From Xylanibacter rarus (GTDB taxonomy: Bacteria > Bacteroidota > Bacteroidia > Bacteroidales > Bacteroidaceae), in the NCBI RefSeq assembly GCF_001275135.1, contig NZ_LFQU01000009.1:1-64000 (forward strand): a stretch of 64,000 nucleotides of DNA, given 5' to 3'. This document shows positions 26,724-46,776 of this stretch, piece by piece. A program made the translations under genes and the position numbers. Under the pieces are notes generated by a model. That model saw only the letters and a list, made by a program, of their open reading frames with translations, was not told the DNA's origin and made no database searches. Position 1 is the stretch's first letter. Each line of letters opens with the position of its first letter.

Positions 26724-27635
26724 ATGACACAAGATCTTTTTGACAAATACATCTGGCTGGTTGATACCATCTACCGTGCCCGGAACATAACCTTCGAGGA
26801 GATAAACGAGCGGTGGCTGCGCTCGCAGCTAAGCGAAGGCGTAGACCTGCCTCTGCGCACGTTTCATAACTGGCGCAAAGCCATAGAGAAAGTGTTTGAC
26901 ATAAATATTGAATGCGACCGCCGGCACGGCTACTATTATTACATCGAGAATGCCGAGGACATGGAGCGTGGCGGCATACGCAACTGGCTGCTCAATACGT
27001 TTGCGGTGAACAATCTTATAAATGAGAGCCATCATCTGAAGCGGCGCATATTGTTTGAGGAAATACCGTCGGGCCGGGATTATCTTGCACCGGTGATAGA
27101 GGCTATGCGCGACAGCCTGAAGATAGAGATAAGTCATAAGGGATACTTTGACGGCGAGGCTAAGGTTTATACCATAAGTCCTTATTGCGTCAAAGTGTTC
27201 AGGCAGCGGTGGTATGTCGTGGGACTATGCGACGAGCGCAATGCCGTAAGGACATTCTCGCTCGACAGGATATTAAGGCTTGACACCACAGACAATAAGT
27301 TTACATATCCAAAGGACTTCGACCCTGAAGCATGGTTCTCAAGCTGTTTCGGAATAATAACCGAAGACATCAAGCCGGAACGGGTACGCATCAAGGTGTA
27401 CGGCCGTCAGCGTATGTATCTGCGTTCGCTTAGACTTCACTCTTCGCAGACCGAGACAGAAACATATTCAGACTATTCCGTATTTGAGTATTACATAAAG
27501 CCGACGTTCGATTTCCGTCAGGAACTGCTTTCACGCGGCGGGGCGGTCGAGGTGTTGTCGCCCGTATGGTTTCGCGACGAGATGGCTGACGAAGTGGCAG
27601 ACATGGCTGTGGCTTACGGGCTGATAAAAAAATAG
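26724..27635 (+). CDS. WYL-domain protein
   Basis: A 303-aa protein of the WYL family, whose members usually sense a ligand and control transcription, often next to defence genes. The N-terminal 80 residues are helical with a possible HTH (FHNWRKAIEKVFDINIECDR). The WYL domain spans about 130-200, with VKVFRQRWYVVGLCDERNAVR-type sequence in which the signature triad is Trp-Tyr-Val. The C-terminal WCX-like part ends PVWFRDEMADEVADM. It is immediately downstream of the AAA+ gene and followed by a strong terminator, so the two form a bicistronic unit. Confidence 0.85.
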   Translation: MTQDLFDKYIWLVDTIYRARNITFEEINERWLRSQLSEGVDLPLRTFHNWRKAIEKVFDINIECDRRHGYYYYIENAEDMERGGIRNWLLNTFAVNNLINESHHLKRRILFEEIPSGRDYLAPVIEAMRDSLKIEISHKGYFDGEAKVYTISPYCVKVFRQRWYVVGLCDERNAVRTFSLDRILRLDTTDNKFTYPKDFDPEAWFSSCFGIITEDIKPERVRIKVYGRQRMYLRSLRLHSSQTETETYSDYSVFEYYIKPTFDFRQELLSRGGAVEVLSPVWFRDEMADEVADMAVAYGLIKK

Positions 27636-27792: not shown

Positions 27793-28230
27793 TTATAAGA
27801 AACCTACAATTTTGAACTTAAATGCTCCGTTAGAAGTAATTTTCTCGTAAACCACTCCGCCGAATGCATAGCCTATTCTGCCGTGCGGACGCTTAACCGT
27901 TACATAGCCGGTGGGCAGACTTGGCACAATCATTCCGATTGACGGCTTTACCACAACGTATGTGCCGCCCCTGTCGCAATAGTAACGTCCGTGTGAGTAG
28001 ATGTACGGCCTGTGGTTATGATGTATCACCACTCCAGGCGGGCGTCCGTGCGGCGGCGGAGCAGGGCGCTTTTTGTGATGATATTTTTTATGTGGCGGTG
28101 CCTTGTGGTGATGTTTCTTATGGTGTTTGGGCTGAGTTATATACGATGTCTCAGTCAGTGTAGAGGCTCCTGTTGTTGCGCATGTGAGCGTCAGAAGCAT
28201 TAGCAGCGATAATAGTCTGAATCTTCTCAT
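27793..28230 (-). CDS. Secreted His-rich protein (DUF6515-like)
   Basis: A 145-aa exported protein with signal peptide (1-22). Next comes a His/Lys/Pro-rich linker (about 34-68, with KHHKKHHHKAPPHKK) that could bind metal, then a small domain with YIYSHGRYYCDRGGTYVVVK and GMIVPSLPTGYVTV, reminiscent of DUF6515. Function unknown. The transcript should begin near 28325, giving a leader of about 95 nt. Its promoter lacks a -33 box and carries the TAGGGA direct repeats shared with the gene at 45554-46507, which is also basic, secreted and His-containing. Confidence 0.65.
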   Translation of the reverse strand: MRRFRLLSLLMLLTLTCATTGASTLTETSYITQPKHHKKHHHKAPPHKKYHHKKRPAPPPHGRPPGVVIHHNHRPYIYSHGRYYCDRGGTYVVVKPSIGMIVPSLPTGYVTVKRPHGRIGYAFGGVVYEKITSNGAFKFKIVGFL

Positions 28231-28330
28231 AGCGTAGTCTCCTTTTATTTTGTTGTTATTATTTCTTTTTTGCCGGTCTAAGCCTCTGTCTCCAGTATGC
28301 TCAGGTATTGGTTTTAATTATTTTTCTGTT

Positions 28331-28437
28331 GCAAAGATAGGCATTAAATATCTGCCGGCAGAATTGTTTTCCCTACAAGTGGTTAGGGATTTCCCTAAGT
28401 TTGATATGGATTTAGGTATTTTGTGTGCATTTCCCTA
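28331..28437 (-). promoter_or_regulatory. Activator-type promoter with TAGGGA direct repeats (site A)
   Basis: On the minus strand a consensus -7 box TATCTTTG (28332-28339) has no TTTG at the -33 place. TAGGGAAAA begins 36 bp upstream (28375) and TAGGGAAAT begins 22 bp further (28397); a third TAGGGAAAT begins at 28437. The central site is also a near-palindrome TTAGGGAAATCCCTAA. Two-turn spacing of direct repeats is the usual geometry for LytTR-type regulators, but the regulator is not identified. Confidence 0.6.
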
Positions 28438-45553: not shown

Positions 45554-46507
45554 TTATCTTCGTCCGCCAAAGTGTCTGCCGCTGTTTCCGCCAGATGAGC
45601 TTTTTCGGCTGCTGCTTCCGCTGCTCTTAAATGAGCGTGTGGGAGTGCTTCTGTTTCCGCTGAAGCTCTTGGTTGACCTCTGTGGACTGAAAGTATTGTT
45701 GGGAGTCTTAATCTGGCGGCTGATGCCTTGCCTCCTGTTCCTGTTGAAGTTCATGCTTCCGTTGCCGTTTGGTCTCGGTCTTGCTGTTGTCCGCGTACTG
45801 CTTTCACGGTTGTTCCTTCTGAAACTTTTTTGTCCCTTCAGGTTGCTTCCGTTGATGTTCCCTTTTACATTCTGAATGGTTTTTATGTTTTCTGGTCTGC
45901 GGTTGAAGTTGCGGCCCCATCCGTTTTCTCTTGGCCGCCTGTTGTCTCTGTCTCTTCCGGAGAAAGCACCTTTATGGCCTCTTCCGTAGTCGCCGCGGTC
46001 AAATCTGTCTCTCATGCCGTGGCCTCTGTTTATACTTCCGTGGTTAAACGTGCGCCCTTTATACCAGCTGCATCCTCCGTTATGGTGCCAGCTGTGACCT
46101 CCGCGATATGATATGTATACAGTCGGATGGCTGAAGTAGAAGTAGTCGCGTCGGGGATAGCGGGCGTAAATTGCAAAGTGCCATACTCCGGAGGTCCAGT
46201 AAAGCGGGCGGTAGAAGTATGTTGCGGCGCAGAATGCCCTGTATTGCCAGTCGAGCAGAATGTAGCTGAAGTCGAGGTTGCGTTGTGTCCAGTATGTGCC
46301 ATACAGGTCATCGTATGTGTTGATGCTCATCAGATAGTCGAGATTCACCTCGTATGCTGCATCATATTGCTCCTCGTTCAGGTTCAGCTCATAGGCCATT
46401 TTGTCCGTCAGAAACAGTGCCTGTTCGCGTGCCTGACTATAACTCATCGCCTTTGTTGCGGTGGTGAGTGTCAGCAGGGTTGTCAGTATTATTATAAACT
46501 TGTTCAT
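45554..46507 (-). CDS. Secreted Arg/Gly/Ser-rich protein with His/Tyr-rich middle
   Basis: A 317-aa exported protein. The start at 46507 gives MNKFIIILTTLLTLTTATKA; the in-frame ATG at 46564 lies upstream of the -7 box and is excluded. Residues 20-75 form a helical domain (ALFLTDKMAYELNLNEEQYD), followed by an aromatic Trp/Tyr/His stretch (about 95-155). A low-complexity tail of 160 residues is rich in Arg, Asn, Gly and Ser and ends SGRHFGGRR. The basic tail could bind acidic polymers. No family is recognised. It shares its promoter architecture with the His-rich gene at 27793-28230. Confidence 0.6.
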   Translation of the reverse strand: MNKFIIILTTLLTLTTATKAMSYSQAREQALFLTDKMAYELNLNEEQYDAAYEVNLDYLMSINTYDDLYGTYWTQRNLDFSYILLDWQYRAFCAATYFYRPLYWTSGVWHFAIYARYPRRDYFYFSHPTVYISYRGGHSWHHNGGCSWYKGRTFNHGSINRGHGMRDRFDRGDYGRGHKGAFSGRDRDNRRPRENGWGRNFNRRPENIKTIQNVKGNINGSNLKGQKSFRRNNRESSTRTTARPRPNGNGSMNFNRNRRQGISRQIKTPNNTFSPQRSTKSFSGNRSTPTRSFKSSGSSSRKSSSGGNSGRHFGGRR

Positions 46508-46540
46508 GTCAAAGCCTTTCTGTTTTCTTTTTAACCGTAT

Positions 46541-46607
46541 GCAAAGAAAGCTATAATTATTCATATGTAAAAAGGTTTTTCCCTAACTTCAAGGGGGAAA
46601 ATCCCTA
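46541..46607 (-). promoter_or_regulatory. Activator-type promoter with TAGGGA direct repeats (site B)
   Basis: On the minus strand the -7 box is TTTCTTTG (46542-46549, weaker than consensus) with no -33 box. TAGGGAAAA begins exactly 36 bp upstream (46585) and TAGGGATTT begins 22 bp further (46607). Both distances equal those at site A. ACACAAAATA also precedes the distal repeat in both. Confidence 0.6.
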
Positions 46608-46776
46608 TTTTGTGTTTATTCTGCATATAGATGCCGTATTTTTACGTTATATTCAGTGCTGTTTTTATATCTGATGGTGTGCCGTAAATTCTTTATTTAA
46701 AGACTGATATAAGTCTTTTGAATGGTAAATGTAATATTTTTTAATAAATGGCGTTATATATTAAAATTTGTTTTTG

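Follow-up and report, generated by a model that had tools for sequence, protein, structure and literature searches.

Two sites in the stretch of Xylanibacter rarus DNA analysed here (64,000 nt, hereafter the window), A and B, are very probably copies of one conserved activator operator that belongs to a cell-envelope regulon. The operator has a fixed geometry, a restricted set of targets and a limited taxonomic range, and as more than a hundred related bacteria, by a wide margin, have the same site at the same distance from genes of the cell surface, it represents a real, so far unnamed switch. It is a real operator of activator type, specific to one lineage and serving mostly exported proteins. 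We propose that the bound factor would activate rather than repress transcription, a repressor at the operator position being possible, and that the signal would come from the cell envelope and might be stress.

Results

Two unlinked genes share one operator geometry

Sites A and B contain the pair TAGGGA-N16-TAGGGA on the minus strand, at positions 28370-28397 and 46580-46607, respectively. Measured from start to start, the repeats are 22 nt apart and the proximal repeat lies 36 nt from the -7 box at both sites (Table 1), which bears out the earlier note that two unlinked secreted-protein genes have an identical operator geometry. The same note described both sites as lacking a -33 box. This is true of A and B, which have TTCT and TTTT at this place, but does not hold as a general rule: across 218 sites, NTTG is found 19-21 nt before the -7 box in 94, as compared to 14.3 expected from shuffled spacers, and exact TTTG in 55. 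A weak -33 element is often left in the operator promoters, A and B being exceptions. The third repeat noted at site A is a genuine TAGGGA, but it is not conserved, is not part of the operator and most likely arose by chance. At this place, -40, TAGGGA is present in one of the 218 sites, namely site A itself, and absent from the other 217, and within 100 nt upstream there are three copies in all among the 218 sites.

Table 1. Positions of the operator elements, their target genes and the small-RNA candidates
Feature	Position	Strand	Sequence	Remarks
Site A, distal unit	28392..28397, read from 28397 down	-	TAGGGAAATCCCTA	TAGGGA and profile match
Site A, proximal unit	28370..28375	-	TAGGGAAAAC	TAGGGA and profile match
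Site A, -7 box	28332..28339	-	TATCTTTG	30 nt past proximal TAGGGA
Site A, third TAGGGA	28432..28437	-		40 nt above distal unit; probably chance
Site B, distal unit	46602..46607	-	TAGGGATTTTCCCC	TAGGGA and profile match
Site B, proximal unit	46580..46585	-	TAGGGAAAAACC	TAGGGA and profile match
Site B, -7 box	46542..46549	-	TTTCTTTG	30 nt past proximal TAGGGA; one mismatch to TAnnTTTG
P0001, target of site A	27793..28230	-		145-aa secreted His-rich protein, DUF6515 (PF20125, E 8e-10)
P0002, target of site B	45554..46507	-		317-aa secreted protein, 'TDKMAYEL' family (our own label)
sRNA candidate	L146:3105-3225	-		directly behind operator; shared core and hairpin
sRNA candidate	L479:1530-1645	+		directly behind operator; shared core and hairpin
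sRNA candidate	L538:6300-6420	+		directly behind operator; shared core and hairpin

With up to one mismatch, the pair occurs twice in the window, whereas the mean in shuffled sequences is 0.13 (100 shuffles, one of which reached 2). In the whole 3.79 Mb genome, the exact pairs are A and B only. A random scatter relative to -7 boxes, which the earlier note named as a refutation, did not emerge from the analysis. When one mismatch is allowed, the genome holds five bare pairs and eight matches to the reversed control, so that the short pattern alone is no evidence; the evidence for the operator comes from its geometry and from the relatives.

For P0002, searches of Pfam and NCBIfam gave no match. 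Its predicted structure has a mean pLDDT of 51 and contains helices between residues 23 and 94 in a block with pLDDT 71-92, followed by an Arg/Gly/Ser-rich tail of low confidence in the model, and a fold search returned no clear known match. A stretch that we take to be LTDxQ-like had suggested a Spy-like protein; this idea was dropped, as neither family nor fold searches gave support. Spy and CpxP are absent from the VIA list for P0002, which excludes nothing. Neither P0001 nor P0002 matched PHROGs, no relatives of P0001 were found in the genome contigs, and there was no two-component pair among the ten tested ORFs neighbouring the sites. A gene for a WYL-domain regulator (window 26724-27635, plus strand) is convergent to the site A gene and shows no sign of operator membership.

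A profile ranks sites A and B first in the genome

We trained a sequence-only profile, R1, on 98 sites, with A and B excluded, and searched the genome with it, scoring the best 150 of 2449 first-look candidates. Site B ranked first (46540-46609, 47.8 bits, E 4e-12) and site A second (28330-28398, 41.6 bits, E 4e-10), followed by C7:21375 (29.0 bits), C26:21919 (24.7) and C17:49910 (23.1). Weaker matches that span nearly the whole model lie at C2:157647 (14.6 bits), C23:9554 (13.7) and C21:32584 (13.5), and partial matches, which cover little beyond the -7 end, score up to 17.4. Genes for exported proteins stand behind seven of the eight near-full-length matches, that is, behind A, B and five of the six others; no secreted-protein gene lies downstream of C21:32584. 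These five further targets are a protein of the DEYNRR family (our own label), with an outer-membrane-type gene next in line; a second P0002 paralogue, which shares 61% identity across 155 aa; two lipoproteins, one small and one of the glycine-zipper type; and an OMP_b-brl_2 protein (E 9e-15). Homologues of each occur among the operator targets of other genomes.

The operator consists of two directional units

From fetched loci we collected 137 distinct pairs, A and B included; selection of the loci relied on the pair and the appearance of its spacer, never on a -7 box. Counted from the second TAGGGA, a TAnnTTTG box starts at +29, +30 or +31 in 1, 87 and 15 pairs, respectively, which makes 103 of 137, and is missing from these positions in the remaining 34; the relaxed form T[AT]nnTTTG is found at +28 to +32 in 118. 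Other TAnnTTTG boxes within 50 nt occur only at +7 (15 sites) and +8 (one site). In an alignment of 99 sites from other genomes, C10 and C11 of the distal unit are kept in 96-97% and their proximal counterparts, C32 and C33, in 78% and 64%, which indicates that the operator is made of two directional units, TAGGGAWWWYCC, 22 nt apart. Each unit has 12-15 informative positions, the -7 box begins ~29.5 nt downstream of the centre of the proximal unit, and the signature with its fixed geometry is 66 nt long.

The reading that the repeats are due to chance or composition and that the geometry of the two sites coincides by accident is refuted by the family-wide range (see below), the fixed geometry and the genome ranking by R1, and we give it a negligible probability. 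The bare pair with one mismatch, which is no commoner here than its reversed control, would agree with it; the geometry, fixed even among pairs collected without a -7 requirement, and the restricted gene content downstream speak against it.

The operator is confined to a group of related bacteria

Among 150 genomes of the genus, the exact pair was found in 110 and the reversed-control pair in 39, with counts inflated by 22-nt tandem arrays in some genomes. Such arrays, whose units begin with TAGGGA, were seen in G140, G050, G071 and G006, and by their look they are unrelated to the operator. Since the matches in relatives showed a longer unit, the search pattern was refined to TAGGGAWWWNCY-N10-TAGGGA. 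In the family, 59 of 201 genomes, representing 11 of 30 genera, contain this pattern, and the matches listed include no reversed control. In a draw from the order, it was found in 2 of 198 genomes, with one control match; one of the two is the genome of the window, and the other, G349, lacks a -7 box at the expected distance. None of 12 g3 genomes yielded the exact operator. A scan of the named genome collection with the pattern and a required -7 box gave at least 120 stretches, and the matches listed come from Prevotella, Segatella, Hoylesella, Hallella, Leyella, Phocaeicola and Mediterranea, as well as from Bacteroides caecigallinarum, other Bacteroides sp. and uncultured kin, one match being labelled solely as an uncultured bacterium. 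The argument of the earlier note that conserved distances mark a true regulatory site is upheld by their being kept in related genomes too; the operator is conserved among relatives, and an absence from orthologous promoters was not what the comparison yielded.

The targets are exported proteins

An ORF lies close by in 215 of the 221 distinct full-geometry sites, 103 of which stem from the named-collection scan that required a -7 box. By a simple hydrophobicity rule, applied to the controls with equal leniency, 207 of these 215 downstream ORFs are signal-peptide-like, as compared to 263 of 604 control ORFs (other ORFs of the named loci). The largest clusters among the 215 are the DEYNRR family (81), the P0002 family (61) and a glycine-zipper-type lipoprotein (23), and minor ones comprise MG2-like (5), beta-barrel (4) and BamE/DUF4476-like (4) proteins, in addition to smaller clusters. 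For MG2, glycine zipper and BamE, the scores do not reach the curated cut-offs. One target is a Skp/OmpH chaperone (E 2e-38), and a weak match to CpxP (E 0.0027) is far below the cut-off. That the target set belongs to the cell envelope is well supported, and we infer from its make-up that it may serve in stress. Two labels given by eye found no support: in L144, the gene that comes next to the DEYNRR gene downstream, taken as FadL-like, has a weak match to PorV/PorQ (42.6 bits, cut-off 90), and the first small ORF in L132, taken as DUF6249-like, has no Pfam match.

A candidate small RNA follows the operator at some loci

At three loci, the operator is directly followed by a similar stretch (Table 1), a candidate for a conserved small RNA under its control. 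In an alignment of the three sequences, they share a 36-nt core with one variable position and a predicted hairpin in which four pairs are changed on both sides with pairing kept and one pair is broken in one sequence. A T-rich run after the hairpin is clear only in L479 among the three. None of the stretches contains an ORF of more than 18 aa; in L538, a 185-aa frame further down was counted as its ORF in the target survey. Other stretches, in L047 and L076, each possess a terminator-like hairpin, and no ORF of at least 45 aa begins there within 170 nt. Searches of Rfam with L047, L076, L146, L049 and L051 gave no match besides tRNAs elsewhere, and a stretch of this type was not found in the genome of the window. 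In L049 and L051 (from 1500), the operator is followed by stretches that lack a nearby ORF and are alike by eye, with a terminator-like hairpin visible by eye in L049. An ORF-poor stretch also follows the operator in L076 and L132 (5229-5460), and in L132 it precedes a small ORF and then an ECF-sigma-type gene (Sigma70 regions 2 and 4).

Candidate regulators

A search with R1 over 264 regulator loci (807 kb) found no full-length site, which speaks against simple autoregulation and also serves as a negative control for R1. The best partial match (14.0 bits), before a hemerythrin-LuxR gene in L309, is too weak to count. No regulator gene was found under a site, save the ECF-sigma-like gene further down in L132.

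The earlier note had favoured a LytTR-type activator. As a shared factor, this was not upheld: no LytTR orthologue is common to all operator-bearing genomes examined, so that a LytTR factor is weakly supported at best, and we consider it very unlikely that such a protein binds the operator. The 22-nt period of the direct repeats falls within the ~20-23 nt of LytTR sites. In the accessible part of PMC6193735, LytTR systems are described with two direct repeats ~21-22 nt apart, and repeats of 11 bp, separated by 11 bp, are predicted ahead of a TATCTTTG -7 box in two LytTR operons of Bacteroides; one unit of these repeats, ACCGGAAATCA, resembles TAGGGAAATCC. In the genome of the window, six LytTR response regulators are encoded next to LytS-like kinases. 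All 22 operator-bearing genomes of one survey have one or more LytTR matches, and among g19 genomes, all eight with the operator have a match, whereas three of four without the exact operator have none. However, G313 (one operator, 90% complete) has no match at E 0.001, and the single matches of G232 and G277 each lie in a frame of ~860 aa. G173 (two pairs, one with full geometry, 100% complete) shares no orthologue with the genome of the window (G000): its three LytTR proteins, with N-terminal parts that are hydrophobic by eye, match the six response regulators with no more than 32% identity and over no more than 120 aa. According to the same accessible text, the distance from LytTR repeats down to the -35/-33 element is mostly ~10 bp, with 4-11 bp for Streptococcus mutans, and the repeats head the operon of the regulator itself (PMC6193735). 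In the operator, by contrast, the unit abuts the -33 place, ending 0-3 nt above it depending on the length assumed, which is outside but near the lower bound given there, and the proximal unit is 9 nt nearer to the -7 box than in the Bacteroides cases cited (36 versus 45) (PMC6193735, accessible part). The targets of the operator, moreover, are exported proteins.

Binding by an AraC-type factor, to which a directional two-box unit and the proximal position would point, appears decidedly unlikely. For Bacteroides hybrid two-component regulators of this type, direct repeats have been predicted, for example sites of 14-16 bp with a mean distance of 21 bp, as far as the accessible part of PMC3878776 goes, and the operator, with units of 12-15 positions 22 nt apart, agrees with this distance. 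In that account, these motifs govern mostly local sugar-use clusters beside the regulator (PMC3878776, accessible part), whereas the operator precedes scattered cell-envelope genes with no such regulator nearby. AraC-type matches number 41 in G000, 9 in G173, 20 in G313 and 15 in G163. The AraC protein of L356 found its mutual best partners only at 26-29% identity, and the partners were inconsistent. In all four genomes, one small stand-alone AraC protein consistently came out as the mutual best match over its full length, among the fetched proteins, which for G163 and G313 were only part of the AraC set. It was nevertheless rejected as the regulator: in a survey that scored the best 20 candidates in many genomes, it had matches of generic level or none in the operator-bearing g19 and g30 and strong ones in g3, without exact operators. 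This small protein (L344:1063-1482, plus strand, and kin) carries an HTH_18 domain and no sensor domain and has strong matches in many genera of the family; in G000, G163 and G313, its gene adjoins one that by eye resembles a DPP III peptidase.

A LuxR/NarL-type or Crp/Fnr-type factor would have to read the imperfect dyad TAGGGA-WW-TCCCTA, a reading we hold to be unlikely. In the distal unit of the 99 aligned sites, T stands at position 12 in 56% and A at position 13 in 53%, and this partial dyad is centred where a class II dimer would sit, but its right half is weak and shifted by one base between site types. GerE-type proteins occur in all 37 genomes searched, and a hemerythrin-LuxR form, confirmed by Pfam in G024, recurs in many of the genomes; its gene is represented by only the HTH part in G173 (L292), though it is full-length in G281, a genome of the same genus.

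When the LytTR, LuxR/GerE, AraC and OmpR families were compared, only RprY, the OmpR-type regulator of the RprX/RprY system, had a clear orthologue in every operator-bearing genome examined for it. Binding by RprY, which would make the regulon a Cpx-like envelope response of the group, is a possibility, less likely than not, that we put forward tentatively. The protein is present in all 12 operator-bearing genomes tested, from eight genera, at 69-89% identity, its assignment by NCBIfam is clear (445.6 bits, cut-off 370), and it is the sole OmpR-type match in G163 and G291. OmpR-type factors usually bind tandem half-sites ~11 nt apart, whereas the operator has no such 11-nt half-sites, with nothing like TAGGGA at +11 in the 99 aligned sites, and the RprY loci contain no full-length site. 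In the accessible part of PMC6032018, the system is stress-related and RprY is known from B. fragilis, Tannerella and Porphyromonas. Its co-occurrence with the operator is therefore necessary but not telling, since RprY is reported in Bacteroidales outside the operator-bearing lineages, and its range is wider than that of the operator, which in exact form was not found in the 12 g3 genomes and which occurs in only 2 of 198 genomes of the order draw. No binding motif is given in the accessible parts of PMC6032018 or PMC3646045.

Discussion

Class II activators sit where the proximal unit is centred and contact RNA polymerase from there. The operator resembles their sites in that it abuts the upstream promoter element, has its centre ~29.5 nt above the -10/-7 box and goes along with a weak upstream element; it differs by its own sequence, TAGGGAWWWYCC twice, 22 nt apart, and by the -7 box of Bacteroidota. 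In our model, the two directional units would be on the same side of the DNA, separated by two helical turns. At the proximal unit, the factor would touch RNA polymerase as a class II activator, the distal unit being placed two turns further up, and promoters with a weak or missing -33 element would need the bound factor for full activity. The regulon served in this way would consist mostly of exported proteins, namely lipoproteins, outer-membrane proteins and one Skp/OmpH chaperone, with an apparent small RNA at some loci.

Envelope-stress systems of a different kind, CirY/CirZ and EcfO/Reo, are described for Phocaeicola vulgatus in the accessible part of PMC13114119. They likewise control exported stress proteins but make use of alternative ECF sigma factors, in contrast to the two-unit operator above an ordinary -7 box, and no such operator is mentioned in the accessible part of that account. 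Literature searches, which left most subscription-journal papers outside their coverage, yielded no bacterial account of the motif, matches to the operator string being on viruses, animals and human cells, and nothing on TAGGGA in Prevotella, on LytTR direct-repeat promoter sites in Bacteroidetes or on hemerythrin-LuxR regulators in Bacteroidetes-type bacteria.

The microbial communities of the human gut and mouth and of the rumen have Prevotella and its relatives among their major members, yet few regulons have been defined in these bacteria. We see about an even chance that the family-wide envelope regulon of Prevotella-type bacteria and Phocaeicola, with an activator and a conserved trans-acting small RNA, is their counterpart of Cpx and sigma-E, in which ordinary -7 promoters with a two-unit operator take the place of alternative sigma factors. 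If its targets answer envelope damage, a large bacterial family would guard its surface by means other than those of Escherichia coli. Scanning for the 66-nt signature lists the regulon in any genome, and its sites provide ready reporter promoters and bait DNA for the regulator.

A further feature is seen at sites of the DEYNRR class, for instance in L104 and L108. Here, a second TAnnTTTG box lies 7 nt past the proximal TAGGGA and 23 nt above the main box (15 of the 137 pairs), and it may be another promoter, one that would be blocked once the factor is bound.
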